Part shown: piece by piece, positions 5,276 through 49,442 of the stretch
Position numbering within the stretch: the stretch's first letter is position 1
How the letters are laid out: each line of letters opens with the position of its first letter
NCBI GenBank assembly: GCA_947579605.1
Contig: OX388315.1
Coordinates: forward strand, 496,001 to 560,000
Direction: 5' to 3'
Length of the DNA stretch: 64,000 nt
From: Athripsodes cinereus
Lineage: Eukaryota > Arthropoda > Insecta > Trichoptera > Leptoceridae
The notes under the pieces: generated by a model
Told to the model about the DNA's origin: nothing
Database searches by the model: none
Seen by the model: only the letters and a program-made list of their open reading frames with translations
Made by a program: the position numbers and the translations under genes

Positions 5276-5280
5276 ATAAT

Positions 5281-5565
5281 TGACATTGTACTTAAAAAAC
5301 AACAAAATTCTGAAAAGAGTGGGAGACCAATTGTTTGCCAGGTGTTCCACAGAGAGGACGTTTAGATACGTTAAAACATTCCTTGAACTCTTAAGGACAA
5401 TTGGTTAATGTGTAAGAATAATTGACATTGTACTTAAAAAACCACAAAATTCTGAAAAGAGTGGGAGAGCAATTGTTTGCCAGGTGTTCCACAGAGAGGA
5501 CGTTTAGATACGTTAAAACATTCCTTGAACTCTTAAGGACAATTGGTTAATGTGTAAGAATAATT
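5281..5565. repeat. 142-bp tandem duplication
   Basis: A block beginning TGACATTGTACTTAAAAAA occurs at 5281 and again at 5423, almost identical over about 142 bp. Each copy contains TTGCCAGGTGTTCCACAG, a terminal word also seen in the MITE at 29571. Confidence 0.9.
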
Positions 5566-11802: not shown

Positions 11803-11812
11803 ATGTCTGAAC
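11803..11812 (+). CDS. Caspase gene, proposed first coding exon (10 nt)
   Basis: ATGTCTGAAC is followed by a strong GTAAGT donor at 11813. It leaves phase 1, exactly what the acceptor at 20385 needs, giving MSERTQEDNK. It is the best start I found, but the coding part is tiny and the intron is 8.6 kb, so another first exon cannot be excluded. Confidence 0.45.
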
Positions 11813-14800
11813 GTAAGTGATTTGAAATACTTCTATTTTTGTATTTGTTTTCTAACTTTATTTTATTATTCGTACATGCATTCTCTCAAGTCACTCAATA
11901 ACGGGTGGATAGCTGGAAGAAAGAAGTATAAATATGCTTATATGCATGTAAAGGAAAAAAAACAATCTATACGTCAAAGAGACAAAATAACGTTAATTTT
12001 TTTCTGAGAACCAGATCTGTTAATTAATAATTTAGTCTTAAACCTGATGGGAACACTGAATAAAACTTGATTTAATATTTAAGGAAGATTAAAAAATAAT
12101 ATTAAAATAAGGTGACCACTTTTTCTTCGATGCCCTCAAAATTTCTATCCCCGCCCATCGCCGTATTTTCAGTACAGTATAGGAATTTGAAATGTTACAC
12201 ATTCTCTTCGAAATACTCGTATGATTCGATGATACTGTAGGTATTATGTTACTTTTATGAAGGGAAAAATTGAGACAAACAGATGGTCTGAGTGTTGAAT
12301 TAGACTGTTTACAATATATTATTGGTCCAAGTAGAGATGAAAGTTTTATGATAATGTGTATTGTATTATTGATTCATAGCTCTCCGTTGACCACAAAATC
12401 ATACATTGACAAAAATGACTTTGAATATTGTATGTTCTTGCTAGGTTATACCATAAAATATTTCATAAAAATATATTTTATAGGTACAATGCAACATTTA
12501 TTTTGCGATAGGTACTTACTTTAATTTTTGTATGGCTTTGGCTTGTATTAATATTCTTAGCTAAATTGCTGCGTTCAATAGTTATTCCATTCAAATCCTT
12601 GGTTCCCGTCCAGAAAGCCACTGCACCGCCTCTGAGGTCGACTTATTTTGGATACGAGGATATTGGTGCTATATATTTTGTTCGTGTTCTATTGCTAAAT
12701 GGATATTATTGTGTAATAAATAAGCTATGTTGTGAAATTGTGATATTTGTGTGTCTGTGCCGATAAAACAAATGAGTACCTATGTTACCAACGTATCTTG
12801 CGTAATAATCTTCTATATATATAAAAGAAAGTGGTGTTACTTACGCCATTTATAACTCAAGAATGACTGTACTGATTTGAATGATCTCTGGTTTGTTGGA
12901 TTCTTCTCCGCCCCTAATAGCCGATAGGCTATTAAAATATCTTTTAAATTAAGGAAAGAAAAATTACGAAGATAATTATTAATATGGAGAAATATAAAGT
13001 AATAAATATGCGATATGGAGAATTATACAAAATCAACGATGATGTTTTTTATACATTGGTCTATATATAGAATAATTTTTGTATACATTTTCAAATTAGA
13101 ATCGTTATCCACATATCTCTGTAAAAATGAAATAAAAATAAAAACAATTTAACATCTGTGGTTCTGAAATTACAATTTTGAAAAAATCATGGATAAGTTT
13201 TTTTATAAATTTAAAATGAATAGGTATCAACCTGGTGTTGATGGGTGGCTGAATAGAGTGTCTCTGTGGATAAGATTAATTTAGTGCATTTACTCTGAAA
13301 ACAAACATATAGTCTCCGTGTTTTAGTGAGGTGTTTTAGATTATTTGCATCAGGATAATATGAGTGGTTGTGGATAGTGTGTGCAAAGGAGAGTGTTGAT
13401 TCATCAATTGTGGTCGGTGTTGTTTTCAATTTCAATACATACAGAATTTTTCATCAACATAGTGTTCTATTTGACATTTGAAATTAAAATTTTTAATTAT
13501 CTTCATAATCAAGAATCATAGACAAAATTCAAAATTTAAAAATAATATCACAAGTACTTAATTCAATGTCATCGTAGTCAACTTGACACGATGACGAGTT
13601 TATTAGAAGCAGAGCCACCAGATGGGCCAAGTAAAAAACGACGTTTTGATCATTCGTATGCAAATCCAGCGCCAATCAATGTTTACGGTCCTCACTCCTC
13701 ACCACCTTATTTGGTGATAGTGGAGAATAATGATAGTGAAAAATTTATACACCCTATGACTTTTGGAGGATTTTTGGCAAAAAATAAAGTAGAAGGCATT
13801 ACTCCAGGGGGCGTACGTGCGGATGGAAGAAAGAAAATTGCAGTCACTTTCGCTTCACCAGATCTAGCTAATAACTTTGTTGGAGCGGATATGCTGACTA
13901 AAAATGGACTAAAAGGATATATACCCAATTATAAATTATTCAAGAGTGGAATAATCAGAGGCGTCCCTTTGGACCTTACAGAAGAAGAAATTTTACGCAA
14001 CATAGAGGTTCCGTTATCGTACGGAAAAGTGAATAAAATTCGACGATTAAATAGGAGGGATACTTCTTCAGGAAACACAGAATGGAAACCCTCTACCACC
14101 ATTCTAATAACATTTGAAGGACAAAAACTGCCAAAAAATGTATACTTATTTTATAATTCAATAATTGTTGAAGAATATATTCAACCTGTTTATATTTGTC
14201 ATAACTGTCTTCGATACGGACATACCAAAGCGAGATGTACTTCAGCTCCAAGATGTAGTAATTGTGGAGGAAATCACCAATCCGAAACATGCCCCAAAAA
14301 AGAATCCCCGCCATGTTGTGTGAATTGCTCTGGAACCCACTCGGCAATAAACAACACTTGCCCTGAGTTCAACAGACAAAAAAAAATTAAACTTACCATG
14401 ACATCCGAAAACATTTCTTTCGCTCAGGCAGCTAAACTGATCCCACCATCTAAAAAGTCATACAGCGAAGTAACATCCGGTATGATCAACTCTCAAAAAC
14501 AATCTTTATCACCTAAAGCTAAAATCAATATTCCACGTCCCCGAACACCTACTGTTCCCCTAATAGACAAGAAAAAGTTGAAAGATCTTCTGGCTTACAC
14601 AAATGGCCAACCATCTAACCCTCAGAATGGATGCGCCCTTACCCAGCAAAAATCTACCGTCACCTCTTTTTCTGCCTCTGGTGAAACCTCACAAGCGGTC
14701 GCGGAACCTGTGTCCTCTACATTGGAGCAATTTATTTCTCATATTCTGTGTTTTGTAAATAATTCAAAAAATGATCAATTGAACGCCCTAATTCTTTCGA

Positions 14801-17800
14801 GCCTTTCACCAATTATTAATTGTTTAACTGATTCCCATCAAGATGGAGAGTCTAACTGAAGTTTCTTCGACGTGTACAATATTACAGTGGAACTGCAGAA
14901 GTGCAGTCTCCAACAAAATTGATATCGAACAACTGATCAAAAATTATGAGCCAAAAATTATTGCCTTGTCTGAAACTTGGTTAAACCCAAGTATTTCGTA
15001 TACTTTTCCTCATTACTCATGTATTCGCAGCGATCGTGCCGATGGAAGAGGAGGGTCGGCTCTATTAATACACTCATCCATCCAATTTACAACCATTAAC
15101 ATCCCAACAACCTCTAACACTACACAAATTGTTGCTGTGAACATAAACAATATTGGATATGCATCTATTTACATAGCTCCAAGCAATCCCTTCGATATGC
15201 ATTTCTGGAATTCCGTTATTTCCCAACTGCCATCCTCCTGTATCCTAATGGGAGACTTCAATGCTCATTCTCCTTCTTGGGGAAGCTCATTCTATGACTC
15301 AACCGGGAGGAACTTACTGGATTTCTTGGATGAAAATAATCTGATAGTTTTAAACGATGGTTCACCCACCCGCCTAAATCATCTCTCAGACAGACCTAGC
15401 GCTGTTGATCTTACTATCTGTTCACCCTCCTACGCTTCAAACTCGACTTGGTCGATTATTCCAGACGCTTACTCGAGTGATCATTTCCCGATAATAATAA
15501 ATATCCCAGCACATATTTTATCCTTAAGTACCAAAGCAAATACTGGCGTTTACACCACAAAAAAAATAGATTGGGAAAATGTTAGCAAAGATTTGTCGAG
15601 GATTTCTTCCAATTTGGCATCACCCTCAAATTACTTAGACATAAATTCTACGTACACATCGATCCATATGGCCTTATCGGAGATAATTAATAATAATACA
15701 ATAAAATCTGTAAAAAGTAAACAACCCAAGCAGAACCCTCCTTGGTGGGATGATGAGTGTGCAACTCAAGTGCGAAAAAGAAGGGAAGCGATGAGAAGAT
15801 ATCGAGGTGATATGAGCAATGCCAATTTTCTCAATGCAAAGGCTGTTCAGGCGGAAACAAAAAAGAAATTAAAACAGAAAAAAAGAGAAGGATGGAAAAA
15901 GTTTTGCCTGTCCCTCTCACCATATTCTTCGTTAAGTTATGTTTGGAACACTATAAATGGATTCAGAAATCGGGATAACGTGATAATAAGACAGCCAGAA
16001 ATAAGCTGCTTAGAGGAATTTGCGAATAAGTTGGCAATTGCCACTGCCCCAAATTGTAATGAACTACCAACAAATGAAATATTTGACAAATCATATTGTT
16101 GGCTAGATGCCCCCTTCCAAATAGAAGAGATAAAAGTTTTTCTCACAAATCTTCAAAATTCATCTCCAGGTCCCGATGGTATCTCATATAGGCTATTCAA
16201 GCAGTTTCCAGACTCGCTGTTACATATCTTACTCAACATATTTAATAAATGCTTCGAGTCAGGGACTCTACCAGAACAGTGGAAGCTGCAAAAAGTAGTT
16301 CCTATTTTAAAAAAATTTAAAGATCCCGCTTTAGCAGCATCATATCGACCAATAGCGCTATCGTCGTGCTATTTGAAGATACTAGAGAGGCTCATAAAAA
16401 ACCGTCTGGAATGGTACGTGGAACAAAATGATCTAATTCCCGCTTATCAGTTTGGATTTCGTAAATCTCGATCGTGCCTGGATAATCTATCCATTCTTAC
16501 TACTGACATAAGAGAAGCCTTCTGTAACAAGGAAATGACATTAGCAGCGTTCATAGACCTACGCTCCGCTTACGATAACGTACACTTACCGATCCTAAAA
16601 GAAGTATTGTCTGATTTGGGTACGCCACCTAAGTTAGTACAATTAATTCATAACATAATGTGTGATCGAACCATCATGATACAAGATAAAGGCAGAACCA
16701 TCCAAAGAAAAATATGGAGAGGTCTACCTCAAGGTTCGGTACTCTCTCCCATTCTCTTTAACTTATATTGTCGAAAATTGGGCTCGTCACTTCACAAAGA
16801 CTGTCAAATCCTTCAATATGCTGATGACATAGTACTTTATCTTTCAAGAAAAAATATTGATGATCTTACTGGGATAATGAATAGCTCTCTTACAAGCTTA
16901 AACCAGTGGCTCACAGGAGCTGGTTTGGAAATGTCTCCCGAAAAAAGTAAGCTTGTCTTGTTCTCTACAAAACATAATCCACCAGAATTCATAATAAATG
17001 TTGAGGGTAAAGATATTCCAGTATGCGACGAGGTGAAGTTTTTAGGTATCACCCTGAATCGAAAACTTTCATGGAACACACATATCTGCAATATTGTTGC
17101 TAACTGTGAAACTCATATAAATCCACTGAGAGCGGTATCACGAGTCTGGTGGGGAACCCATCCACTAACTATGAAAATGTTTTACAATGCACTAGTGAGA
17201 AGCCGAATAGATTTCGGAAGTTTTCTATGGGACCCACTACCTAAATATCTAGAGGATAAACTTAATAAAATTCAAGCTAAATGCATGAGACTCATAATCG
17301 GAGCTATGAGATCGACACCGATAAATTCATTGCAGATTGAAGTAGCTGAGATGCCACTAAGAATCCGAAGACAACTTTTGTCGGACAATTACTATTCTAA
17401 GAGATTCGTTTTAAACAATCATCCATTGACAGACAAACTCAGTTCCCTTTCTAACTCCCTACCATTGAACCTGAGAAGAGAAACACATAAGCCAAATCTT
17501 TGTCAAAGCCATGATTTCATGTCATCTTTAGATAACCAGTGCCGTAAGTACGACATTCCCCCAATATTCACATTACCTCTGAAAACCATCATCACTAACC
17601 CTCAAATTGTGAGTCTTGGCATTAACAAGGGCACGAAGTTCACACCAAAAATGACGGACCAAGTTTTTAACAACACCATCAACACCAATTTTCCTAAACA
17701 TATCCAAATCTTTACGGATGGCTCTAAAAACCCAACAACTCAGTCGTGTGGGGCAGCAGTGTTCATTCCCTCTATAAATTTGGAGGGAATGTTCAAGCTG

Positions 17801-41800: not shown

Positions 41801-44800
41801 GGCCAGCTTGTCACTTGTTGGGAAATCGACGGTTTGCATAGTGACGCCCCATCAGTGCTATACGATTTTTTTTTCCTTAATTTCTACTATTACTACTACT
41901 ACACTGGCCAGCAGACCAGCTGTATATAATAAGCTTGCAAACCGTCTTCTCCGCGTCAACAAAAAATTAAGATAATAATAATAATACTACTTTATTCAAT
42001 CAATAACAATAAAAACAAACGTGAAAACTGAAACAACATGGCTACAATTAAGTTGCAGCAGCCTCACTAGGTTACCCTGGATCGAGGCGTGCTGCGAATA
42101 AAAATAATAAACAATATACAATCAACAAACGATCATTATATCCAAGCAAAATCACAAATAACAAATAAATAAATAATTGACTAATTAATTAAAAATGAAA
42201 GTATGTCAATGAGTCAATAATTAAACGCATGCACAATAAAGTAAACAAATGAATATTCAGGATGGGTGGCAAACTTCATCGCTGAGTTTAAAATATAAAA
42301 TATCTTTATTTTTTTGAACACCTGTCGTAAAAAGGACACATAATAACTTATATAAATGGCAAAGCCGATGGTAGGAATTGTCAGGGCCAACTAAGGAACA
42401 TCTAGTAGTGTCCACCACATGGATCAGGAGGTGGACACTGCAGCACATAGGTACGTCGACGAAAAGAAAAAAAACAAGCTTGTTATAGACCAATCCAGGT
42501 AATTAAAAAAATAATAAAATACGAAATCAGAGAATGCTGAGCACCTAAAGGACAGAAACTCTTGAACAATAAATCTGATACAGTGTATGTGTATGAGTGT
42601 ACCTCACATTTAAAAATAGATGCACTATTTACGATGTTTTCGAAGAAGTATTATGAGCACACTGAGAAAAATACTAACGAAATTTCACAACGAATCATTG
42701 GTACGTACTATCAAATTAGGACCAGAGTTCGTACAAACGATTCACTAGTACAGATCTATTAACTTCGCAACCAATTCATTGGTACGTTTACCAACAACTT
42801 CTTCACAGTGACGTCATCAACTTGACGTTGGCTGCAGAACGAATCGTTGGTAAGAATCAATTGAATTACTTGTCATACTTACGTAGGTACCTATACATGA
42901 CCTTGCTCGTAGCTGTCAAAAGTCCAATAATATTAATCGCGTTTAGTTGTAAAATGTGATCTATTTTTCTAATAACACTATAATTATTATTTGAAAAAAT
43001 CTAACAAAAATAATAATATTATTAGAATAATTTTTCACATTTTACAAATAAACATTGTGATTAATATATAAGTAAAAAAAGTAGCAAGGAAATTAAAATG
43101 ATTTTTTTCTTTTAAGTTCTTATGTAATATAATCATTTATTAAAAATTTCAATTGAAAAAATATAAAAATAAGGACAATTTATAAAGACATAATAAATAT
43201 ATCAAACGCGTATTATAGGATTATTCCAAAGGTCGTGCAGAAATTACAACTCTTTCTTCAGGGATGTTGAATTTTACTTATTATTATTATTCACAGGCAT
43301 TCCACCCGGTAGGAGTGAAATTTTACTTATCATCATTGCCAAAAATCAACGGTGCTATTTCTAGATCTCTTCAGGGTTCTGGTTGATGATTGTCTTGAAT
43401 GTGGTGAGGTTCCCCTTCCCCAGTTTTTATTCAGAGAGAACTGATCCCCCCCCTGAGCATCAGTCATTGCTTGTGTTTACTTGTAATAGCCTATTCATTT
43501 CACGACTTCATGTTTTTCTTTTTTCTTTCATTGTTATTGCCTCGGTCGGTGCAATCGAGTTCATTTTGTTTTTATTTCTTTTTGTTGTTGGAACATAGCT
43601 GCAACATTATAACTGAACTCCATTATATTGATATAATGAAAACAAAACTGTTCTTGGTTTTACTAAGATTTATTTGTTAAATAAGTTACCAGGTTTCGAC
43701 CTATGAGGTCATTGTTAAACTAAATTTACTATAGGCCGTTTTGTTACTTAAATACTATGTCTTAATAGGTAGGTATAACAATATATTCTTAGAGCTAAGG
43801 TTTTATATAATGCAAAAATTATTGAGGGAAATTCAGAAAGAACAGTTGGTTGTGTTGTATGATTTAAATTATATTGATTATATATAATGTGACATTTTAT
43901 TGGTAAAGATTAAGGAAGACAGTTGGTTAGTATTGTGTAAATAAATGAAATAGGTTTGGGTATTTTGACTTCAACTAATAGATTGATGTAACAGATGTAC
44001 CTAATATTATTATCAACAGAGGAATATTGACAAAAAGCATCCATTTAGGAATAATAACATGTACAACATCTAGATTTTCAACTAGTTTCAACAATACCCA
44101 ATACTATTTCATTTATTTACACAATACTAATCAACTGTCTTCCTTATTAATCTTTACTCAACCAACTGTTCTTTCTGAATTTCCCTCAATAATTTTTGCA
44201 TTATATAAAACCTTAGCTTTAAGAATATATTGTTATACCTACCTACAAAGACATAGTATTTAAGTAACAACACGGCCTATAGTAAATTTAGTTTGACAAT
44301 GACCTCATAGGTTGAAACCTGGTAACTTATATAACAAATAAATCGTAGTAAAACCAAAAACAATTTTGTTTTCATTATATCAAAATAAATTAAAAAAACA
44401 CAAGTTCTAATTGTACCACTTTGTTGCTCTACGGGAGTTATTTTATTTGGTATTCTTCTCTGCAACATTTTTCTATGGGAACAAAAATTTTTCATGCTGA
44501 CAGTTGACCCTTTCTGTTTGAGTACGAATGCCCCAATTCTACTAATTTGTTTTCTTCTAGCCTTTTGATAATTCCATTTGACCTTTTTTCTGTAAATTTA
44601 AAAAAAATATATATAACTAAAAGTTATTTTTGAAAACGAAAGAATAGAAATTAAAATAACAGAATTTGAAGTATACAAACTTTTGCTATTGTTGTAGGTG
44701 ACACCAAACCCAGTGCAACAGCTTCACCAATTTGTTAATGTTCTGCAACATTCTGTAAAGTACAAATTTTAGTTAATCTTCAATAAAAACTCAAATTTGG

Positions 44801-47800
44801 CTTGTTGATAAAACAATTATTGCAAATTAAACATCTCATACCAACTCATCATGGACTGGACTTTATAAAGATTCATTATTTGTTGAGCTGTAAATGCTTT
44901 TGATCTTAACATATATTATGGCACCACTCGTGTGGACAAATTTGTTAGTGTAGAAATTTAGTCGGATAAATGTAAGTCCCCAGATTTCTGAACTATCCAG
45001 GTGGACGGTGGGTCTCCTTCAATGTATATACTCAATCACAACCTCATTTGTTTCCTCCACAGTCTAAAAGTACAAAAATGATTTATTAAACCAAATGATA
45101 ACTAATAAAGTTAGTTCATTAACAAACAAAATCAATGTTAGTCCAATATTACATACCGAATTGATGGTTGAAGTTTCACTTTCATTTCATCACATGGTTT
45201 TTAACATTAAATTCTGTAATCTGTAAAGCAAAAAATATTCATTAAATTAAATAACCTAATTAGTCCATCCACAAGCACTCAAGGTTAGAACAATGTTACT
45301 CACCAAATGGTTACTTGATGGTCCACTTTCATTCTGTAATTCCACGTTATTTTCCACATTGCGTTTCATCTATAAAGTAAAAACATATATCAAAATCATT
45401 AATGCTTTAAATCATACAAAAATAATAGTAAATAAGAAAAAATTTCAAAGGTTTACCTTGCATTTCCATGACAGGTGATTTTTTCATCCCATAATGCAAT
45501 ATTATGAGGGATCTTGTTTTAAATGTGAGTAAATGCACGGTCATATTTCAACAATTATCCTCAATCCACTAAAAAAAACACCGAAATACGAAAACGACTT
45601 GACAGAAATTAACACAGAACAAAACACAACGGAGAACCGATAAATGTCATCGAATATTAGCGTTGCCATTAGAATAATTAATAATGACCAAAGTATTGTT
45701 TTTTTTTTATCAAAATATAACACATTTTACAACCATTTTAGTGTATTCTTTATATTGAATAACAATAAATAAGTATTAGGTTATTTGTATAATAACGAAA
45801 ATACTACAAATAAATAAAACAATATTGTACTGTTGAAATACGTTTCGTCAATCATAATGTATTTTTATGCGTGTGGCAATTTTACAAGCCATATGTACTT
45901 ACCGGACTATTATTTTAAACCAACTAGCGCCATACACGGATGTTTGGGTAACTAAAACTAGTAAAAGATTGGTAAAGGCCGAACAAATCATTGTGCAGAA
46001 ATAGTTATCGGTAAATGCGAAATGATTTAATGTTACGTAATGTTGAATTTGATCTTTATGTCATATTATATCAATGGTAAGGCGAGCAAAACAATTTATT
46101 GTGAAATATCAATTGAATTTGTAGATGTACCTTTTCTCAGTGCATAGTTATAATCCAGTTCCATTATCCTAAACTATAAGTCCTTTACTAGGATTCAAAT
46201 GAAATGGCAAACTCTGTCGTAAAATGTGCGAGAAAGAAGGTGATCGACTACCTGCGCCAACAACAAGGTTAGCAAAATCAGGGATTTATGACAAAACGGC
46301 GTTGAAAATGTTCCTCAGAGGATTACCTCATCATTTGAGTATGGTGGTACGCCTCAAGAATCCAGATTCACTGGAATAAGCAATTACAATGGTGACAGAA
46401 GAAGAAAACTTCATTTACGTCCAAAATAGGGTAGAACACCTGAGTGCAGTAAAGGAGTATCGTCCACCTATGGTAACACAACAACAGCTAAGATTCTTTC
46501 CACGTGTACCAGCTGGAAACCCAATACCATTTGGAAGACAGAATCCTTCTTTCACAAGGACTAATTCTGGCAGATTTAACCCACCTATGAGGTGATCGAC
46601 TACCTGCGCCCGTCACACTCACGTCTCTTATGTACGTTAGTAGTGATGGGTAAATTATGTTCGATGTTACTAAATAAAACGCAGATGAAAAGGATTAATA
46701 TTTTTAAAATACGAATTAATATTTTAAGACGCTTATTTTATGCTTGTATTTGGGTTTGTAACAAAAACTCAGATACATCTTTAAAATGATACTTTTATAG
46801 TCATAGGTACAAACTATAGCTAATCACATAAACATATAAGTATGTTTTAAACACGAAAAATATAAATAAATATGCTTTACATTTCCTACTCAATGTAAAA
46901 CAGTTAAAACTAGTAAAAACAGGTCAGGAATAGGATTAGAAATAAGACGTGATATTTACATACCTACATCGAGTAACAAGAAAATATAGTTCGATCCATC
47001 GATACCCGTAAAACAAACTATCACCTCTAATTGGATTTTGTTTTATTATTAGAGTCGACAATTCATTTGAATACAAGTATAGAGCATTGGTTTTAATATA
47101 CATACGTTATATTTTTACTCCGGACATTTAACTATTAATTATTTATTTATTTATTTTGACAATAAACGGCATTTGCCTTTTACAATACATGAGAAGTTTA
47201 CAAAATTATACAGTCTTCAAAAATCAAACATCAAACTAGTAGTCCCATCTCAAAATTGTCATTTTTATACATTGCCTTTTTTATACCGAGATGTAGAATT
47301 ATTACTGAAATTTAAGTCAAAATGTTTTCAGAATTTGTTTTAGATGATGCAGAAACAGAAAATGAAGTCACAGAAGAAAAATACACAAATACCGATGCAG
47401 ATTGCATTCGTTCTGCTGATTTTTCAAAATTACCAACTGAAGTCCAATATGATGTACTTTCGGAGATACCTGACTCCATCAAAAGCAACAAAAATGGTGA
47501 AAATAATAATATATCTGAAATGTATAAATAAGAAATAATATAGGTACCTATTATATTTCTATAAAAGTATATTCGCCTGTCTTCATAGAGGTCAATTATT
47601 ATTTTTACTACGGAAAATGAATCGGGCAACAAATCCAACAACACCCTAGATACCCTCACATTAAGCAATATGCTTTTGTCGTGGAGTAAGTCAGATGTGG
47701 GTTGAATTGAAACCAGGTTTTGTATTAATTTAATTTCAAAATAAAAAAAAACTTTGTATTTTTGTCCCGTATCTCTCGAATGTTCAGCTATTTCACTGTT

Positions 47801-49442
47801 AATTTTCATATATTTCACTTCCTTTTCATGTTCTTTACATCGTTCAATTTTTCTTCCAGGTTTTTTGTTTTCTTCTTCTTCTTTCTCCTCGCACATGCAC
47901 ATCGATTTCTCATAACACGTGACTGCTTTTGAGATTCTCGGATATCTGTGTTTTCTTTCACCCCTACTCTCATACATATCATCGTGTTCTGTCTTCGTCA
48001 TCATATATAAATAATGATTATTTTATTTTAGACTGTCTGATAGTTATAGTTTTGGCTCATGGAGATACACACCTATTCAAAACTGACACTAGAAAAGACG
48101 TCTATGTTGAGAATTTTTTGGAAATAGTAAACACATCTTCAAAATGGAAAGGAAAGCACATAATATTTATCTTTCAAGTAAGTATTTAATTCCAAACCTT
48201 CCCACTTTTTATCACGCTTTTCTCCCCACATCTTACAGCAATATTAGTTTAAGTTTTATCTATTCTCCTCATGTAAGTTATTTATTTATTTATTTATTCT
48301 TCTTGCACATTATCATTACATAACAGTGTTAACAAAAAAATATTTTTTTTTTAAAAACTAGGACGATATGCAGTGGCGAGATTATCACTATAAAGTGATT
48401 TCTTCCATCTAACCACGTTATTCCTAAATACAGAGTTTAAAAAAATACTATATTTCTAACGTACAACATACCTACTTATTATAATATTATGCTTACCACT
48501 TATGTTTAAAAAATGACTGAAAACTATGACGGAATGGCACCTTTTCACGGTTGCAATATGTTCACAATGCAAGTACATATTATTAAAGATAATATTTAAA
48601 GTAAATCAAACACTGTTTCATTCCACTATGAGATTGTTTTAATTATTAGAACGTTTTCAACTACAATGAAGTCATCATCAGTAATAACACAATACTAAAT
48701 CTAAAATTAAAGGACATACAACAATATTAAAAATCTAAAGAGTGGCTACAATTGTCAGGGGGTGTGTGGTGGGCGGGGGTGACAAGTTTAGGGGTGGGCT
48801 CAGGAGCAGAAGTAGTGGTGATGTTATTTGTGGGTTTTGAATATTTACTAAATTTTTATGATTATTAATTTCTAATGTTTCCAAGATGTACAGTTTTTTG
48901 CCTTTAGAACATTTTTGCAGCAATTTCACACCGCTGAGGTCAAACTCATGGCCCGTCTCTAGCATGGTCCGCCATTTCAGAATTAATACCAAAGTTCCTT
49001 TTAGTCCAATTAATAAAATTGATAAATAAACAAATATTGTTTTTAGACGTGTCGTGGTCCCTATATTTCAAAGGAAGTGAAAATTGTTGACAATAGTGAG
49101 GAAGAAGAAGTTCAGGATTCACAATCTACTTATGATGAGGCAGGAACATCTTCAGGAAAGAAAAACCCTCTTCTTAAACACAATGACACAATAGTATTGT
49201 ACAGTACGCAGTTAGGACATACGTCATTACGGCCTGCTGAAGGTTCCTGGTTAATTCAAGAACTGTGTAATGCAGTAGAGATATTAATAAATGAACGTGA
49301 AAATGTATCATTGACAGATGTGTTTATTATGACACAAAGAAATGTGGCATTTAAAACAGCGATAGTATATGGAGAAAGCTACAAACAGATGCCAGCGTAC
49401 AGCAGTACATTGAGAAAGCTTGTTATGTTTTCAAAAGTTTAA
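11803..49442 (+). CDS. Tandem-domain caspase: inactive caspase domain fused to an active one
   Basis: Spliced model: 11803-11812, 20385-20534, 25526-25660, 27779-27945, 28831-29194, 29899-30054, 48032-48177 and 49047-49442, giving 1524 nt and 507 residues. All borders are GT/AG and all phases agree. Domain 1 (about residues 35-270) has the caspase layout, but the catalytic His is Lys115 (VITKY) and the Cys is Ser156 (FFFQASKQ). Domain 2 (about 255-507) has Arg281 in DREGTEHD, His337 in LAHGD, Cys378 in QTCRG, Arg438 in SLRP and KQMPAYSSTL at 489. His and Cys are 41 residues apart, as usual in caspases. An acidic linker (about 388-410, with IVD and VQD) could be the large/small subunit cleavage site. 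No CARD or DED is seen. Family knowledge: Asp-specific cysteine proteases in apoptosis or immunity. Inferred: the inactive domain pairs in cis with and regulates the active one. The exon at 47332 may be an additional or alternative exon. Confidence 0.82.
11813..12808. other. Intron sequence with a small LINE-tail relic
   Basis: Mostly unassigned AT-rich intron. On the minus strand near 12590-12640 a short peptide STSEAVQWLSGREPRI resembles the peptide ATPEAVDWLTRLEPKL encoded on the minus strand near 20115-20180. The two are probably C-terminal relics of one retroelement family. Confidence 0.4.
13222..13233. repeat. Target-site duplication, left copy
   Basis: AGGTATCAACCT directly precedes the LINE and is repeated at 18673-18684. 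The second Helitron copy carries a single near-identical site (AGGTATCTACCT, about 57638-57649 read on the minus strand), i.e. the empty state. Confidence 0.9.
13591..14859 (+). CDS. LINE ORF1, gag-like nucleic acid-binding protein
   Basis: A 422-residue protein. It has an RNA-recognition-like middle region (KLFKSGIIRGVPLDLTEEEI) followed by three zinc knuckles: CHNCLRYGHTKARC, CSNCGGNHQSETC and CVNCSGTHSAINNTC. The C-terminal third is Ser/Thr/Pro rich. Family role: binds element RNA to form the ribonucleoprotein. Its stop (14857-14859) overlaps the ORF2 start at 14843, so ORF2 is probably translated by termination-reinitiation. The frame is intact. Confidence 0.92.
   Translation: MTSLLEAEPPDGPSKKRRFDHSYANPAPINVYGPHSSPPYLVIVENNDSEKFIHPMTFGGFLAKNKVEGITPGGVRADGRKKIAVTFASPDLANNFVGADMLTKNGLKGYIPNYKLFKSGIIRGVPLDLTEEEILRNIEVPLSYGKVNKIRRLNRRDTSSGNTEWKPSTTILITFEGQKLPKNVYLFYNSIIVEEYIQPVYICHNCLRYGHTKARCTSAPRCSNCGGNHQSETCPKKESPPCCVNCSGTHSAINNTCPEFNRQKKIKLTMTSENISFAQAAKLIPPSKKSYSEVTSGMINSQKQSLSPKAKINIPRPRTPTVPLIDKKKLKDLLAYTNGQPSNPQNGCALTQQKSTVTSFSASGETSQAVAEPVSSTLEQFISHILCFVNNSKNDQLNALILSSLSPIINCLTDSHQDGESN
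14843..18559 (+). CDS. LINE ORF2, APE endonuclease / reverse transcriptase / RNase H
   Basis: A 1238-residue intact polyprotein. Residues about 10-230 are an AP-type endonuclease (LQWNCRS, ALSETWL, MGDFNAHSPSW, SSDHFPI). Residues about 430-720 are the reverse transcriptase (AAFIDLRSAYDNV, GLPQGSVLSPILF, catalytic YADD). Residues about 950-1090 are RNase H (FTDGSK, TAECVAIEEAL, LSDSLSA, WIPSHAGIAGNELVD), with the acidic residues and the late His present. A Cys/His tail follows (CECGEIQTIDHLLLEC). It would nick the target and copy the element RNA by target-primed reverse transcription. No frameshift or stop was seen. Confidence 0.95.
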   Translation: MESLTEVSSTCTILQWNCRSAVSNKIDIEQLIKNYEPKIIALSETWLNPSISYTFPHYSCIRSDRADGRGGSALLIHSSIQFTTINIPTTSNTTQIVAVNINNIGYASIYIAPSNPFDMHFWNSVISQLPSSCILMGDFNAHSPSWGSSFYDSTGRNLLDFLDENNLIVLNDGSPTRLNHLSDRPSAVDLTICSPSYASNSTWSIIPDAYSSDHFPIIINIPAHILSLSTKANTGVYTTKKIDWENVSKDLSRISSNLASPSNYLDINSTYTSIHMALSEIINNNTIKSVKSKQPKQNPPWWDDECATQVRKRREAMRRYRGDMSNANFLNAKAVQAETKKKLKQKKREGWKKFCLSLSPYSSLSYVWNTINGFRNRDNVIIRQPEISCLEEFANKLAIATAPNCNELPTNEIFDKSYCWLDAPFQIEEIKVFLTNLQNSSPGPDGISYRLFKQFPDSLLHILLNIFNKCFESGTLPEQWKLQKVVPILKKFKDPALAASYRPIALSSCYLKILERLIKNRLEWYVEQNDLIPAYQFGFRKSRSCLDNLSILTTDIREAFCNKEMTLAAFIDLRSAYDNVHLPILKEVLSDLGTPPKLVQLIHNIMCDRTIMIQDKGRTIQRKIWRGLPQGSVLSPILFNLYCRKLGSSLHKDCQILQYADDIVLYLSRKNIDDLTGIMNSSLTSLNQWLTGAGLEMSPEKSKLVLFSTKHNPPEFIINVEGKDIPVCDEVKFLGITLNRKLSWNTHICNIVANCETHINPLRAVSRVWWGTHPLTMKMFYNALVRSRIDFGSFLWDPLPKYLEDKLNKIQAKCMRLIIGAMRSTPINSLQIEVAEMPLRIRRQLLSDNYYSKRFVLNNHPLTDKLSSLSNSLPLNLRRETHKPNLCQSHDFMSSLDNQCRKYDIPPIFTLPLKTIITNPQIVSLGINKGTKFTPKMTDQVFNNTINTNFPKHIQIFTDGSKNPTTQSCGAAVFIPSINLEGMFKLSSQSSIFTAECVAIEEALKICLMYQGWNKKFIILSDSLSAIQSLRVGSLRASINELILDIKRLLSLLDSSGVDVIFVWIPSHAGIAGNELVDALATRAADSDSPILEFAQPLSDILLDFKSNAFEKWNNQWGKPNVLVGARLRAIQPEVVRKPWFSKIKMNKFEIASICRLRLGHCLVAQHLHRLGILTEPYCECGEIQTIDHLLLECSLHKQYPLTVPAEGPLPGNSLNLLSSTRHFRQISKYLKYNDINI
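18673..18684. repeat. Target-site duplication, right copy
   Basis: AGGTATCAACCT follows the A-tail and matches 13222-13233 exactly. Confidence 0.9.
19593..19940 (-). pseudogene. LINE endonuclease/RT C-terminal fragment
   Basis: The minus strand encodes VTRREDGRWTSRILEW, RNVRRPQKRWVDDIVQ and WCRVARDRKVWKSFDEAY. This is the GH-TRR / RPxKRWxDD tail common in RTE-like LINEs. Upstream text (NETIRQKTKIVEIVNKV, KLKWQWAGHV) extends it to about 19940. It is 5'-truncated. Confidence 0.8.
20085..20215 (-). pseudogene. Short retroelement C-terminal relic
   Basis: On the minus strand a frame reads DIHEATPEAVDWLTRLEPKL then stop, similar to a peptide near 12590-12640. The family is not identified. It lies 170 bp before a caspase exon. 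Confidence 0.35.
20385..20534 (+). CDS. Caspase gene, coding exon 2 (domain 1 first strand)
   Basis: The acceptor is TTTTTTCAG at 20376-20384 and the donor GTAAGA at 20535. It enters needing two bases of a codon and leaves in phase 1. It encodes a short basic N terminus, then KGKVLVFYHDIFGG, the first beta strand of a caspase domain. In domain 2 the equivalent is GQVVVLNYNRRMEYGG, and the next intron falls at the same place. Confidence 0.78.
20650..20935 (+). pseudogene. R1-clade LINE fragment
   Basis: GATCCATGGTG, GCTCAATATGCGGAACATATCCTTTGGG-type text and later GTCAGCCGGGTTTAGC match the end of ORF2 of the R1-like element at 31677-37501 at lower identity. It begins about 115 bp after a caspase exon. 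It is broken and noncoding. Confidence 0.7.
21213..21500 (+). repeat. LINE tail, duplicate copy
   Basis: GACAGGCTCAAATACAGCATG through AAATGAGATATGAG is nearly identical to 22155-22455. It encodes RLKYSMQKTVLLSSTRIVRR and then a stop, with a shared 3' UTR. The upstream part of the protein is absent. Confidence 0.75.
21500..22020. repeat. Dispersed repeat (GCGTGCTGCG family)
   Basis: It contains CCTGTATCGAGGCGTGCTGCG followed by AT-rich text with many AAACAAACG words. The same core occurs in a block at 41967-42254. It separates the two LINE-tail copies. Confidence 0.5.
22022..22455 (+). pseudogene. Non-LTR RT C-terminal fragment (R4/R2-like)
   Basis: The plus strand encodes HEIKDMWRTPTTIIVPIV, MSVNGLIPKSLSNNLRKL and KYSMQKTVLLSSTRIVRRFL with a stop at 22232. 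PIVxSxxGxIPKSL followed by QKxVLLxTxRIVRxFL is a frequent C-terminal signature of early-branching, APE-lacking LINEs. The clade is assigned tentatively. The fragment is 5'-truncated, preceded by (AAT)n. Confidence 0.6.
22556..22950 (-). pseudogene. LINE C-terminal and 3' tail fragment (Jockey/CR1-like)
   Basis: Read on the minus strand: TLNRL, VGVTRCRSNQQKWGFLDEED, then HLLQCPLMRNACNVSDLM. These are a zinc-knuckle-like tail of RT proteins. Further down is a 3' end with ACATGTAAAAGTCTCACGCC and an AAATAAATAAA tail. The same 3' end recurs at 58070-58155. Confidence 0.7.
23267..23440 (-). repeat. LINE 3' end (CCACAAGTGGGGTAGCC family), copy 1
   Basis: ATCACAGCATATCCCACAAG, GGGTAGCCAGCAGACCAG and TTCAGGATGGGTGGCAAACC are shared with 28285-28460, 41885-42305 and 60780-60960. 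The plus-strand left edge is a (TAC)n run, so the element probably lies on the minus strand with a (GTA)n tail. It resembles the 3' UTR of the LINE fragment at 60349-60690. Confidence 0.6.
24040..24358. repeat. 53-bp minisatellite, 6 copies
   Basis: GTCCCTGCCGTGC starts recur at 24040, 24093, 24145, 24199, 24252 and 24305. The unit is 52-54 bp and includes TTACAGTCGGTTAGGTGTAG and CATCCTTACATGCTT. The last copy is the most diverged. It lies inside a caspase intron. Confidence 0.95.
24360..25525. other. Caspase intron, AT-rich with repeat relics
   Basis: It holds (TTTA)n at 24706-24728 and a MITE-like relic near 25255-25345 (CACCTTTCACAGGACACTCG) related to the element at 29571. No gene was seen. 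Confidence 0.4.
25526..25660 (+). CDS. Caspase gene, coding exon 3 (domain 1)
   Basis: The acceptor is TTTTTTGCAG, the donor GTAAGT, with phase 1 in and phase 1 out. It encodes FERIEKHFGRSMNFETELFP then NHEVIEKLIEIG, the helix-strand-helix of the large subunit. The RxGTxxD motif that supplies the pocket Arg in active caspases is absent here. Confidence 0.82.
25951..26091 (-). repeat. LINE 3' end (CR1/Rex-like tail)
   Basis: On the minus strand GGGTTAGTTGGAAGATATTG, then CAATAAACTCGCCCATTGCAC-like text and a run of TTATTATTAT form a conserved 3' hairpin and tail. The same tail is at 40115-40228, 40293-40421 and, more diverged, 48275-48420. Confidence 0.65.
26286..26822. mobile_element. PIF/Harbinger-like MITE, copy 1
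   Basis: The element is 537 bp, flanked by TAA at 26283-26285 and 26823-26825. The ends are inverted repeats of the form TGKGGTGTTCWCA..TGGCGAATATCGCC. Three copies exist in the window and no transposase. The 3-bp TAA/TTA duplication fits the PIF/Harbinger group, but family assignment is inferred. Confidence 0.75.
27133..27676. mobile_element. PIF/Harbinger-like MITE, copy 2
   Basis: It is closely similar to copy 1 over its whole length, with the left TAA flank present. The right flank reads TTT and the end has a small partial duplication (GAACAGTGCTGAACACC), so the target duplication is no longer intact. It ends about 100 bp before a caspase exon. Confidence 0.75.
27779..27945 (+). CDS. Caspase gene, coding exon 4 (domain 1, dead His site)
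   Basis: The acceptor is TAGTTTCAG, the donor GTAAGT, with phase 1 in and phase 0 out. It encodes YDILIVFVITKYTELEKYL to PKLFFFQ. It aligns with LIVIVLAHGD..IFIFQ of domain 2. The His-Gly pair is replaced by Lys-Tyr, so the general base is gone. Confidence 0.85.
28285..28460 (-). repeat. LINE 3' end (CCACAAGTGGGGTAGCC family), copy 2
   Basis: ATCACGGCATATCCCACAAG, GGGGTAGCCAGCAGATCAGC and GGATGGGTGGCAAACCTCAT match the other copies. The left edge is (ACC)n. Confidence 0.6.
28831..29194 (+). CDS. Caspase gene, coding exon 5 (end of domain 1, start of domain 2)
   Basis: The acceptor is TATTTTGCAG, the donor GTAGGT, with phase 0 in and phase 1 out. It begins ASKQDD where active caspases have the Cys (QACRG), so Ser replaces Cys. 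It continues with a short linker, ANFFIVKSYLSHKTEEGGTW (small-subunit strand and pocket), a terminal YLPPDAYSTLL, and then FGQVVVLNYNRRMEYGG. That last segment is the first strand of domain 2, so one exon bridges both domains. Confidence 0.87.
29571..29757. mobile_element. Short MITE (CACCCGGCAAA termini)
   Basis: The left end GGATCACCCGGCAAATAATT is mirrored by the right end TTGCCGGGTGCTCC. Inner text CTCGTTTTCGTAAGGTTTCG is mirrored by CGAAAACTTACGG. Relics of the same family occur near 1426, 5340, 10510, 25260 and 60965. Confidence 0.7.
29899..30054 (+). CDS. Caspase gene, coding exon 6 (domain 2, pocket Arg)
   Basis: The acceptor is AATGTTTTCAG, the donor GTATAA (weak), with phase 1 in and phase 1 out. 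It encodes EFVPDREGTEHDVERIRDTF then SKIGFDVITLNNLSKFQ. RxGTxxD followed by a helix and GF-V is typical of the large subunit of active caspases, and the Arg lines the substrate pocket. It is the domain 2 counterpart of coding exon 3. A diverged copy lies at 47332-47496. Confidence 0.85.
30520..31662 (-). pseudogene. RTE-like LINE, 3' half (host of an R1 insertion)
   Basis: The minus strand encodes reverse transcriptase from CCFIDYEKAFD through TGVRQGCVLAPFIFA and EYADDLALF. It then gives [35 protein letters not shown] and a stop at 30535, followed by a (GAT)n tail. The 5' half is at 37516-38040. The two halves rejoin across the 14-bp target duplication of the inserted R1-like element. Stops in the RT part mark it as decayed. 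The clade is assigned from the C-terminal signature, with moderate certainty. Confidence 0.82.
31663..31676. repeat. Target-site duplication of R1-like element, left
   Basis: TCTTGCGACTGTTG is repeated exactly at 37502-37515. In the RTE-like host it encodes part of the QQSQ segment on the minus strand, found once on each side of the insertion. Confidence 0.88.
32268..33775 (+). pseudogene. R1-like LINE ORF1 (gag-like), disrupted by insertion
   Basis: The reading frame starts at 32268 (METDDSEAERIFTPRKSLTR) and runs to KRRKKK at 32498, then hits a stop in an inserted segment. After the insertion it resumes at 32576 in another frame (KKTRGTPVAEDD) and runs to 33775. The second part is Ala/Arg/Val rich and ends with zinc knuckles CFRCQLYGHTQREC and CARCAREGHEERDC plus a third Cys cluster. 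Family role: RNA chaperone. The frame shift is 83 nt (77 inserted plus 6 duplicated). Confidence 0.85.
32499..32575 (+). mobile_element. 77-bp retroposed insertion inside ORF1
   Basis: The insert sits between AAGAAG at 32493-32498 and AAGAAG at 32576-32581. It contains an AATAAA and ends in a (TTTTA)n run. It looks like the extreme 3' end of another retroelement copied by LINE machinery. Source not identified. Confidence 0.65.
33765..36926 (+). CDS. R1-like LINE ORF2, APE endonuclease / reverse transcriptase
   Basis: The open frame extends upstream to 33552, but that part lies over ORF1. The likely start is the ATG at 33765 or 33768, overlapping the ORF1 end by 11 nt. About 1050 residues. 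Endonuclease at the N terminus (GQINLGRSRAS, VSIQEHLF, VAGDFNARSPLW, SCDHRLITW). RT in the middle (KKGMLRVIPKGN, GVFLDIAGAFDNAWW, GCPQGSVLGPFLW, FAYADDALLLLSG). C-terminal knuckle CVCGMGAQYAEHILWEC. No RNase H. No stop or frameshift was seen, so this protein may be functional even though ORF1 in cis is broken. Confidence 0.92.
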   Translation: MMANAASVLLGQINLGRSRASAIDLIRCMSKLSIPIVSIQEHLFSKVILDGADVPLAVVDRGPKPMAGFLFDSSRVQPMLLEGLSDEFRCCVCLRIDGREIFLVSVYFKYSDPVGTHLRGLSETLDALRGRPVIVAGDFNARSPLWHDRPGSERTGSGGPVEDFIFSTGLNILNVAGPATFAGPMGESWIDLTLCTDDLLLTLSNWRVHVGKVSCDHRLITWSIGGSLEIEPYGLWSFRGSRTNWEHFGMELKERMRNFAIWLTEGADKAGEKFNSAVVNTAVTVMGRCRPGGRRTTNWWTPELTDLRRQFKSAERAFCPVRSGSVLRDSPEGKRLLERLQRARGSYQLAIRHAKTSAWKEWITETGNADPWSVTKTIVKSKRSADHYLTSIVAGGSETVCIDSTLRTLLDGLVPLDSISRDTPFHAALRFLSRCPPDESIIEPDDVTHSELGEIVKNLGPRKAPGFDRINGAIVKKVWTYCPAEMLALYQACLNEGIFPEVWKKGMLRVIPKGNDKPLSDIKAYRPITLLPSFGKILEILVRNRLAGTLVPGDPKQFGFSRGLSTEHAIEACLKWRNECEDKNVLGVFLDIAGAFDNAWWPLILAKLKIRGCPRWLFNVVSSYFSNRSVMITHAGIVVERIVDMGCPQGSVLGPFLWNVLFDDLLKMDLPPGCTIFAYADDALLLLSGSTRSAIENKFKIAIERILTWGNVNRLVFSPSKTSAMWLRGSLGDRNPVLRMSGSPVRVVNEVRYLGVVLDRGLSFLPHVRATAGKAGVLFFTLRRLSRGTWGLRWRTVKTIYRATYVAQVTYAARVWSHRLLVGSVSMAVLRGQRLPLLAVTGAYRTAASDGLPVIAGVLPADLEILDSVARRKIKADGVVVHFGMSVHAEPGIRGYNRAVSTIRKRTMEVWQERWDGGRTARLVYSFLPNVCERMKKRFLSFDHFTVQLITGHGDLRGKLFDLGLVDDPWCVCGMGAQYAEHILWECPVMMDARDLMLEEMSDGTPRPVWFGEVLLCPQNFRAFQRFVDSWVSRWDLLRGPGLPPADAGRSEN
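37502..37515. repeat. Target-site duplication of R1-like element, right
   Basis: TCTTGCGACTGTTG, identical to 31663-31676. Confidence 0.88.
37516..38040 (-). pseudogene. RTE-like LINE, 5' half of the split copy
   Basis: The minus strand reads LVRGRWREHFEFILNRPDPS, EIEAALKRLKNNKAPGEDGI, DWRNGSIVTLFKKGNPLECG and QQCGFVPGKSCSDAIF, the fingers and start of the palm of the reverse transcriptase. It continues in 30520-31662 once the R1-like insert is ignored. It is 5'-truncated at about 38040, where another LINE begins in the opposite direction. Confidence 0.83.
38041..39835 (+). pseudogene. Non-LTR reverse transcriptase, 5'-truncated and frameshifted
   Basis: The reading frame from about 38041 to 39532 encodes fingers (MDEIKNALKKAKNGKAVGYD), FCAFVDLEKAYDRVD, GVKQGCAMSPWLFNLY and MFADDLVLMAESESDL. 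The frame then shifts near 39484-39530 and continues to 39807 with LRWFGRVERMNEDRMTKKIY and RRRGRPRIKWQDHLN. The tail is (TATG)n, as in RTE-like elements. The endonuclease is missing. The upstream part of the same open frame (37706-38040) is antisense to the neighbouring LINE and is not part of it. Confidence 0.87.
39836..40090 (-). pseudogene. LINE 3' fragment of a related family
   Basis: The minus strand encodes IKRIYLSERRCVKKRGRPRT and DQILTDGHVLSKRNQRACMR, a tail close to the element at 38041-39835. It has a short 3' UTR (GTTCTCTCTGCCTACCCCC) and ends next to that element's own tail. Confidence 0.8.
40115..40228 (-). repeat. LINE 3' end (CR1/Rex-like tail)
   Basis: Minus strand GGGTTAGCTGGAAGATATCA with CTCTCCCATTGCACAAAATT and an (ATT)n tail, as at 25951. 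Confidence 0.65.
40293..40421 (-). repeat. LINE 3' end (CR1/Rex-like tail)
   Basis: Minus strand GGGTTAGTTGGAAGATATCG with CTCGCCCATTGTGCAAAATT. It lies in tandem with the previous tail. Confidence 0.65.
40697..40960. mobile_element. Palindromic MITE with TA duplication
   Basis: The 264-bp element starts CACTGAGAAAAATACT and ends AGTATTTTTCTCAGTG, flanked by TA on both sides. The arms are complementary over most of their length (AGATCGTACAAACGAT, TTAATATTATA). The TA duplication suggests a Tc1/mariner-type origin. A related left part is at 42659-42830. Confidence 0.75.
41340..41740 (-). pseudogene. I-like LINE ORF2 C-terminal fragment
   Basis: The minus strand encodes ISLISRMRIGHCLVATHLAR then CECGTNEESLDHVFFECPKY, homologous to the tail of ORF2 of the full-length I-like element (CECGEIQTIDHLLLEC). 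It is 5'-truncated. Confidence 0.8.
41885..42305 (-). repeat. LINE 3' end copy 3, interrupted by another repeat
   Basis: The left part, (CTA)n then TGGCCAGCAGACCAGCTG to about 41966, and the right part (TTCAGGATGGGTGGCAAACT, 42254-42305) are halves of the CCACAAGTGGGGTAGCC family. Between them, 41967-42254 carries (AAT)n, CCTCACTAGGTTACCCTGGA and GAGGCGTGCTGCG, a family also present at 21500-22020. Confidence 0.6.
42659..43617. other. MITE relic and AT-rich intron sequence
   Basis: CACTGAGAAAAATACTAACG at 42660 repeats the left arm of the palindromic MITE at 40697. A right-end-like TTTTCTCAGTG occurs near 46131, so a larger disrupted element is possible. No coding sequence was recognised. 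Confidence 0.4.
43618..44395. repeat. Large inverted repeat of a Penelope-like terminus
   Basis: Text running from ATGAAAACAAAACTG through AGGTTTCGACCTATGAGGTC and ACCTACCTATTAAGACATAG-type sequence on the left is mirrored on the right to about 44395. The arms are about 300 bp. Read on the minus strand, GACCTCATAGGTCGAAACC has stem II plus GAAAC of a hammerhead. The same unit recurs at 54514-55510. Confidence 0.55.
44396..46195. other. Caspase intron, AT-rich, no gene seen
   Basis: No recognisable protein or clear element boundary was found. Confidence 0.4.
46215..46595 (+). pseudogene. LTR retrotransposon gag relic (Ty3/gypsy, errantivirus-like)
   Basis: Broken frames encode KMFLRGLPHHLSMVV-type text, a stop, then TMVTEEENFIYVQNR, and a Pro/Arg/Phe-rich tail. 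The pattern FxRGLxxxLxxxV..P..LExAIxxxxEEENF is typical of gypsy-type gag proteins of insects. A stop and the lack of pol or LTRs mark it as a dead fragment. It is bounded by a 21-bp direct repeat. Confidence 0.6.
46240..46611. repeat. 21-bp direct repeat bounding the gag relic
   Basis: AGGTGATCGACTACCTGCGC(C) occurs at about 46239-46259 and 46590-46610, an exact 21-bp match. Confidence 0.85.
46745..46790 (+). repeat. SINE 3' tail fragment
   Basis: GTATTTGGGTTTGTAACAAA with AGATACATCTTTAAAA matches the 3' end of the SINEs at 52683 and 59490. Confidence 0.6.
47332..47496 (+). CDS. Caspase gene, diverged duplicate of coding exon 6 (alternative exon?)
   Basis: The acceptor AATGTTTTCAG is identical to that of coding exon 6. 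The donor is GTGAAA, with phase 1 in and phase 1 out. It encodes EFVLDDAETENEV, then SADFSKLPTEVQYDVLSEIP. It aligns with EFVPDREGTEHDV and LNNLSKFQIEGGFLTKF of exon 6, but the pocket Arg and the Gly are lost. Inserted after exon 6 it keeps the frame (562 residues); swapped for it, the active domain would lose its Arg. It could also be a non-used relic, though 55 codons stay open. Confidence 0.6.
48032..48177 (+). CDS. Caspase gene, coding exon 7 (domain 2, catalytic His)
   Basis: The acceptor is TTTTATTTTAG, the donor GTAAGT, with phase 1 in and phase 0 out. It encodes DCLIVIVLAHGDTHLFKTDT to HIIFIFQ. AHGD supplies the catalytic His. It is the counterpart of coding exon 4, with the same intron phases. 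Confidence 0.87.
48275..48700 (-). repeat. LINE tail and hammerhead-like relic
   Basis: 48275-48420 is a diverged CR1/Rex-like 3' end (minus strand GGTTAGATGGAAGAAATCAC). Read on the minus strand, 48640-48690 gives ACTGATGATGACTTCATTG followed by TAGTTGAAAACGTT, i.e. a CTGATGA box, a possible stem II and a GAAA box, as in hammerhead ribozymes of Penelope-like elements. Activity is not implied. Confidence 0.45.
49047..49442 (+). CDS. Caspase gene, terminal coding exon 8 (catalytic Cys, small subunit)
   Basis: The acceptor is TTGTTTTTAG, phase 0 in, stop TAA at 49440-49442. It starts TCRGP, completing QTCRG. An acidic linker follows (KIVDNSEEEEVQDSQSTYDE), then TIVLYSTQLGHTSLRPAEGS, WLIQELCNAV and KQMPAYSSTLRKLVMF. 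These are the small-subunit strands, pocket Arg and conserved tail. It is the counterpart of coding exon 5 in domain 1. Confidence 0.92.
   Translation, partial: TCRGPYISKEVKIVDNSEEEEVQDSQSTYDEAGTSSGKKNPLLKHNDTIVLYSTQLGHTSLRPAEGSWLIQELCNAVEILINERENVSLTDVFIMTQRNVAFKTAIVYGESYKQMPAYSSTLRKLVMFSKV

Follow-up and report, generated by a model that had tools for sequence, protein, structure and literature searches.

We examined a 64,000-nucleotide stretch of the Athripsodes cinereus genome (assembly GCA_947579605.1, contig OX388315.1, positions 496,001 to 560,000 of the forward strand; hereafter the window, whose own numbering is used for positions without a contig prefix), which holds a predicted gene, here gene A, encoding two caspase domains in one chain, a dead one (D1) followed by one with an intact active site (D2). 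The exons of gene A, rebuilt from the DNA, number eight, are in phase and lie between 11803 and 49442 on the + strand; all introns are GT-AG, and the joined frame is open for 507 codons, giving a protein of 507 residues. The eight phase-compatible exons proposed in the initial annotation were thus borne out, since their borders are GT-AG, their phases join and the frame stays open. The exons, the longest intron, an exon-like sequence within it (exon 6b) and a second gene of the same kind (copy B) are as follows, lengths being in base pairs (bp).

11803..11812, + strand: exon 1, start codon and first 10 coding bases, with the border ATGTCTGAAC/GTAAGT
20385..20534, + strand: exon 2, short prodomain and first strand of D1; AG/GT borders, phase 1-1; 47 of 49 residues the same in copy B
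25526..25660, + strand: exon 3, D1 counterpart of the RxGT exon of D2, RxGT absent; 29 of 44 residues the same in copy B
27779..27945, + strand: exon 4, D1 counterpart of the His-Gly (HG) exon, with Lys-Tyr for HG at 27826-27831; PF00656 match; 39 of 55 residues the same in copy B
28831..29194, + strand: exon 5, ASK of QASK at 28831-28839, D1 small subunit, linker and first strand of D2
29899..30054, + strand: exon 6, REGT exon of D2, REGT at 29913-29924; 34 of 51 residues the same in copy B
30055..48031: intron 6, 17,977 bp; the counterpart in copy B has 2,565 bp
47332..47496, + strand: exon 6b, a diverged duplicate of exon 6, in phase but lacking RxGT
48032..48177, + strand: exon 7, catalytic His-Gly of D2 at 48058-48063, aligning with LSHG of caspase-6
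49047..49442, + strand: exon 8, TCRG at 49047-49058, intersubunit linker, D2 small subunit and stop; PF00656 match in the search of the own genome
C11:584586 (exon 1), 585465 onwards (exon 2) and about 601964 (stop), same contig: copy B, with the same exons as gene A

The prodomain of the gene A protein comprises about 40 residues. QASK is split by an intron, with Q encoded at 27943-27945 at the end of exon 4 and ASK at the start of exon 5, and the Q of QTCRG is encoded by the final codon of exon 7. FGQVVVLNYN, the first D2 strand, is encoded in exon 5 from about 29146. The 15-mer across the border of exon 1, ATGTCTGAAC/GTAAGT, is also present at C11:584586, 0.9 kilobases (kb) 5' of exon 2 of copy B.

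Both domains were recognized by Pfam as Peptidase_C14 (PF00656, curated cut-off 21.4 bits), D1 with 49.5 bits (expectation value, E, 5.9e-13) and D2 with 106.7 bits (E 1.9e-30), and no Pfam domain other than Peptidase_C14 was above cut-off in the 507-residue protein. D1 presents VITKY at the catalytic His-Gly site and QASK at the QxCxG site, RxGT being absent, and in D2 the elements REGT, HG and QTCRG are all present. The His-Cys pair and RxGT that define a caspase are therefore found in D2, and D1, in which the catalytic pair is missing, is by its predicted residues a pseudo-caspase; the motifs had been called correctly for both domains in the initial annotation. Against solved structures, D2 matched caspase-6 over residues 2-250 of 253 (best E 1.9e-14) and caspase-8 over residues 23-250, and the best match of D1 was an entry named Caspase-1 (1m72, which we take to be from Spodoptera frugiperda), with an E of 1.9e-8 over residues 21-206 of 258.

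Gene A is not alone in this genome. Of the 29 matches with an E of 10 or lower that a search of the 716 megabases (160 contigs) with the protein returned, seven lay over gene A. Combined with exon searches, the 29 matches resolve to gene A, copy B, two genes on C17 (C17a and C17b), one on C7 and one on C4, together with ordinary caspases and weak matches, giving at least six double-caspase genes at four loci; the count comes from one genome and is a lower bound because just the best candidates were scored, and the exon borders of the paralogues are predictions. All six genes share one layout, in which an RxG exon (phases 1-1), an HG exon (1-0) and a bridging exon (0-1) are followed by a repeat of these three steps for D2. 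The exon search located the first D1 exon in C7 and C4, yielded just an uncertain candidate in C17a and gave none in C17b, whose D2 HG exon was recovered first through a frame search and later with a paralogue as query. The catalytic His of D1 is lost in all six genes (TKY, TEY, SQF, SQY, SKF and SQF) and its Cys in five (QASK, QASK, QASR, QASK and QAPK). In D2, His and Cys are retained in 6/6, CRG is intact in 5/6 and the arginine of RxGT is present in 5/6, the exception in both cases being C4 (QACRS and QKGY, respectively). The pattern predicted for gene A is more than chance, since five other genes repeat its order of exons, its phases and its residue pattern. In a protein collection, no relatives were found at E 0.001 among 5292 candidates; ordinary insect caspases were likewise missing, suggesting that the collection is probably poor in insect proteins.

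Two members of the family differ at their C-terminal ends. D2 of C7 (C7:20143000-20152900, exon 8534-8995) ends in a strongly hydrophobic stretch with a 19-residue mean hydropathy of 2.04, followed by 4 residues, and D2 of C4 (C4:4770000-4778000, exon 5253-5759) ends in one with a mean of 2.27, followed by 3 residues. Both predicted stretches are like a tail anchor. No such tail is present in A and C17a (0.82 each), and none was seen by eye in B and C17b. To our knowledge, membrane-tethered caspases would be unusual.

The assignment of the dead and the active domain to one gene is well supported by the predicted models. Exon 5 encodes the D1 small subunit and, after a 10-residue linker, the first D2 strand; 704 bp separate it from exon 6, the REGT exon. 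The exon that bridges the end of D1 and the start of D2 is exon 5 in the models of all six genes, and the intron between exons 5 and 6 ranges from 144 to 1027 bp across them. The intron between exons 6 and 7 measures 17,977 bp in gene A as compared with about 0.4-2.6 kb in the five paralogues; the gaps between exons 5 and 6 and between exons 6 and 7 are 144 and 521 bp in C17a and 222 and 446 bp in C4. These results agree with the initial annotation in that, by comparison, both domains belong to one gene, although it is not a lone gene but one of at least six. Introns 1 and 6 of gene A contain the following open reading frames resembling those of long interspersed nuclear elements (LINEs), all judged by eye.

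13591..18559, + strand: LINE-like element in intron 1, with a zinc-knuckle frame at 13591-14859 and an endonuclease-reverse transcriptase-RNase H-like frame at 14843-18559; the gap between exons 1 and 2 in copy B is just about 0.9 kb
32516-36926 and 37706-39532, + strand: LINE reverse-transcriptase-like frames in intron 6
37324-38361 and 30535-31146, - strand: LINE reverse-transcriptase-like frames in intron 6

Position 47332 had been given in the initial annotation without its nature as part of a duplicate of exon 6. At the DNA level, exon 6b aligned with exon 6 with a local score of 112, compared with a maximum of 71 in 200 shuffles, and the protein score was matched by 3 of 500 shuffles for A and by none of 500 for B, which has a counterpart between its own exons 6 and 7. 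The joins 5-6-7, 5-6b-7 and 5-6-6b-7 are all in frame. The donors of exon 6b depart from GTRAGT (GTGAAA in A and GTTAGA in B), as do those of exon 6 (GTATAA and GTATGG), and exon 6b is the least conserved between A and B, with 15 of 39 aligned residues the same and synonymous (dS) and non-synonymous (dN) divergences of 0.53 and 0.50, above those of the other exons compared. Given its deviant donors and lowest conservation, exon 6b may be in decay or serve as an alternative exon that is seldom used.

In a maximum-likelihood tree of 19 rows, which included seven single-domain caspases from the same genome, the six D1s formed one clade (100/98) and the six D2s another (90/98), and the same two clades were obtained with 15 rows (99/99 for D1 and 100/99 for D2). 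Separate clades for D1 and D2 suggest that the dead-plus-active chain is older than the split of the six genes and most likely arose once. Deeper placements are unsure because of long branches (the Dronc-like gene, D2 of C4 and C9b). In both D1 and D2, an intron separates the first strand from RxGT and a single, unsplit exon carries CRG and the small subunit; both traits are absent from the open frames of three motif-bearing single caspases on C2 and of the Dronc-like gene, whose splicing is unproven. The predicted gene structure favours a sister origin of D1 and D2.

Averaged over all pairs of the six genes, identity is 0.36 in D1 as well as in D2, indicating that the dead domain is not evolving faster than the active one. 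The motif ST[LM] at the end of D1, a stretch that we take to be the dimer strand of caspases, is retained in 6/6. For A and B, the closest pair, the Nei-Gojobori method (own script) gave an overall dS of 0.23 and dN of 0.19, with 0.21 and 0.21 in D1 and 0.30 and 0.21 in D2; dN was nominally above dS in exon 3 (0.23 vs 0.13) and exon 4 (0.18 vs 0.10). The two genes differ by approximately 0.2 substitutions per site and have no stop inside the compared codons, whereas unconstrained simulation at 0.19 substitutions per site generated a mean of 9.0 stops in 450 codons and no stop-free run in 2000. We read this pattern as relaxed or diversifying change on a maintained frame. Exon 2 and its flanks (20281-20627 as compared with C11:585362-585707) are 94% identical between A and B, while other collinear matches reach 73-89%, and this near-identity suggests recent recombination or conversion between the two copies at exon 2.

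The order of a dead domain followed by an active one has been described outside insects. Mammalian caspase-16 has a dead N-terminal caspase-like domain and a C-terminal domain with catalytic residues in one chain, a layout attributed to duplication of caspase exons with loss of the catalytic His and Cys from the first copy; its authors propose that the dead and live folds pair within the chain, with pairing between chains as an alternative, and term the caspase-like prodomain unique among the caspases known so far (PMC12198278). Gene A has the same order in one open frame, as do all six gene models. Caspase-16 is described as one mammalian gene with each large subunit on two exons and the small subunit on two, whereas the insect genes, at least six in number, devote three exons to each domain and have one exon that bridges the two. 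In corals of the genus Acropora, Caspase-X likewise carries an inactive and then an active domain in one chain; A. millepora has four of them, and seven sequences are known from A. digitifera. The full-length protein lowered the viability of HeLa cells, though less effectively than a form reduced to its active domain, and the family may be limited to corals according to its paper (PMC4715348). Its likeness to gene A, the same dead-then-active layout, is drawn from these descriptions. Because caspase-16 and Caspase-X already show the layout, gene A is not a new kind of protein.

Systems in which the dead partner is a separate protein are also known. In FLIP(L)/caspase-8, the dead fold forms an active pair with the live one and a single active site is left (PMC7586951). 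These are two proteins united by death effector domains, whereas gene A encodes a short prodomain and both folds in one chain, and no tandem death effector domains of the c-FLIP type were found above the Pfam cut-off before the dead fold of its protein. Among insects, Aedes CASPS18/CASPS19 is a decoy caspase regarded as enhancing a paralogous caspase (described in PMC4840389), involving two genes that act in trans, unlike the one-chain gene A, and a short form of Dronc was proposed as a possible decoy in a silkworm survey (PMC3091752). A survey of Lepidoptera from 2011 reported six caspase clades (Lep-Caspase-1 to -6) and no separate caspase-like decoy genes, and its available parts make no mention of a two-domain caspase (PMC3141678). 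The Lepidoptera proteins belong to the same protease family but have a single domain after the prodomain, where gene A has two; Lep-Caspase-4, with a long prodomain and a long small subunit, can be set beside gene A by description only. Among the matches listed in the literature searched, no double caspase of an insect was found, in agreement with the initial annotation, which took the layout to be undescribed in insects, although its layout is known from the coral and mammalian proteins. On taxonomic grounds, the insect double caspase is likely to be convergent with those of corals and mammals.

Caspases act as dimers, normally via a strand of the small subunit. By analogy with FLIP(L)/caspase-8, coral Caspase-X and caspase-16, we consider it fairly probable that D1 serves D2 as a built-in partner, at once enabling and restraining it. 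A three-exon caspase cassette would most likely have doubled, with the first copy losing its catalytic His before the six genes split. D1 would then pair with D2 within the chain through the small-subunit strand used in caspase dimerization, which would supply D2 with a partner already in place and competent for activity and leave the chain with a single active site rather than two, while cleavage at Asp sites of the D2 intersubunit linker may adjust activity or specificity. We infer in this model that the gene is transcribed, that the doubling took place, that the dimer is intramolecular, that D2 is active and that the protein has a role in death or immune signalling.

The main rival keeps the same single gene but has D1 pairing in trans, either as a decoy or enhancer for other caspases or through D1-D1 and D2-D2 links between two chains. 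The caspase-16 authors raised intermolecular pairing as an alternative for their protein (PMC12198278), and the D1-D2 linker of gene A, with 10 residues as compared with 18-33 in the other five genes, is short enough that it may constrain pairing within the chain. However, fusion into one chain in 6/6 predicted models would favour within-chain pairing, the concentration of the partner being fixed, and we regard pairing in trans as rather unlikely.

We also propose, tentatively and as somewhat more doubtful than not, that insects independently built a family of self-contained caspase heterodimers. This would be at least the third origin after corals and mammals, with the dead domain always first, represented here by at least six fast-evolving genes, two with a C-terminal membrane tail and one pair with a second, duplicated substrate-pocket exon through which alternative splicing could turn D2 off. 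Several observations weigh against the model of a built-in partner given above. The A-B dN/dS ratio is approximately 0.8 overall and approximately 1.0 in D1, so that the pairwise data alone show no purifying selection on D1, and gene A stops directly after SKV, 18 codons short of B and just past the caspase fold. D1 of C7 retains its Cys (QACK), and the departures in D2 of C4 mean that not every family member need be active. A grouping of D1 and D2 as sisters was absent from the best tree and, when imposed as a constraint, neither supported nor rejected by the approximately unbiased test (p-AU 0.15 with 19 rows and 0.199 with 15 rows), so internal duplication is not shown by the tree. Finally, exon 6b leaves room for a protein form whose D2 is without RxGT.

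Some of these observations would also fit other explanations. One is that D2 is not a working protease in vivo and that the whole chain serves as a scaffold or as a sink for inhibitors, for instance viral caspase inhibitors. The fast amino-acid divergence of A and B might be expected under host-pathogen conflict, and D2 of C4 lacks the CRG glycine and the RxGT arginine, but retention of the catalytic His and Cys of D2 in all six genes, and of the RxGT pocket Arg in five, makes this improbable. That gene A is a pseudogene in decay, with mobile elements accumulating in its introns, is more improbable still: the LINE-like frames of introns 1 and 6, the dN/dS near 1 in D1 and the end 18 codons ahead of B are all consistent with decay, but there are 507 codons without internal stop or frameshift, about 9 stops would be expected without constraint at the observed divergence, the splice borders and the active-site residues of D2 are intact, and C17a and C17b likewise terminate a few residues beyond the fold, shortly after the position at which A ends. 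The least probable explanation, two neighbouring genes, a pseudo-caspase and a caspase, falsely joined over 18 kb, could draw on the 18-kb intron between exons 6 and 7 and on a possible D1-only end by read-through of exon 5 to a stop at 29239-29241, but we rejected it as unlikely, no search having been made for a start exon belonging to D2 alone, because exon 5 carries the first D2 strand just 704 bp from the REGT exon and bridges the domains in 6/6 models, because the paralogues have short gaps between exons 6 and 7 (in C17a, 144 + 521 bp for the two gaps after exon 5) and because mobile-element-like frames lie in the long gap.

Such a family would matter for several reasons. The tuning of an active caspase by a dead partner has so far been studied in two-protein systems such as FLIP(L)/caspase-8, and intramolecular pairing could be tested directly on a one-chain version from an insect amenable to rearing and genome editing. 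If the design arose independently of corals and mammals, its repeated dead-first order would suggest that structure dictates it. The first lepidopteran caspase came to light through the baculovirus caspase inhibitor p35 (PMC3141678), and an unrecorded, fast-evolving caspase family may bear on the conflict between insects and viruses.

Caspases with a single domain were also observed in this genome. The minus strand of C2:33163000-33202999 holds an array of them with a different exon layout, and the exon search in this array found single-domain caspases only and no double caspase. Three units carry HG and ACRG, one ACRG unit appearing to have Glu, not Gln, as the preceding residue; another unit has TRG for HG, with no CRG exon found, and there is in addition one degenerate fragment. 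A caspase-1 gene (L001) has its caspase domain in one open frame and matches structure entry 1m72 best. A near-copy of it on another contig (C20:10463193-10463870), with the caspase domain also in one open frame, is possibly a retrocopy.

Other repeats were noted in and around gene A. Intron 2, between exons 2 and 3, contains at 24019-24340 units of about 55-60 bases that, by eye, are repeated (TGTCCCTGCCGTGCTTAGCTTACAGTCGGTTAGG...). Two repeats of approximately 540 bases, at 26282-26825 and 27129-27661, are each approximately 90% identical to one site at C11:604633-605174 and are probably a short mobile element. Directly downstream of gene A, at 49880-51000, there is a stretch that by eye is reverse-transcriptase-like, presumably of the kind found in Penelope-like elements.
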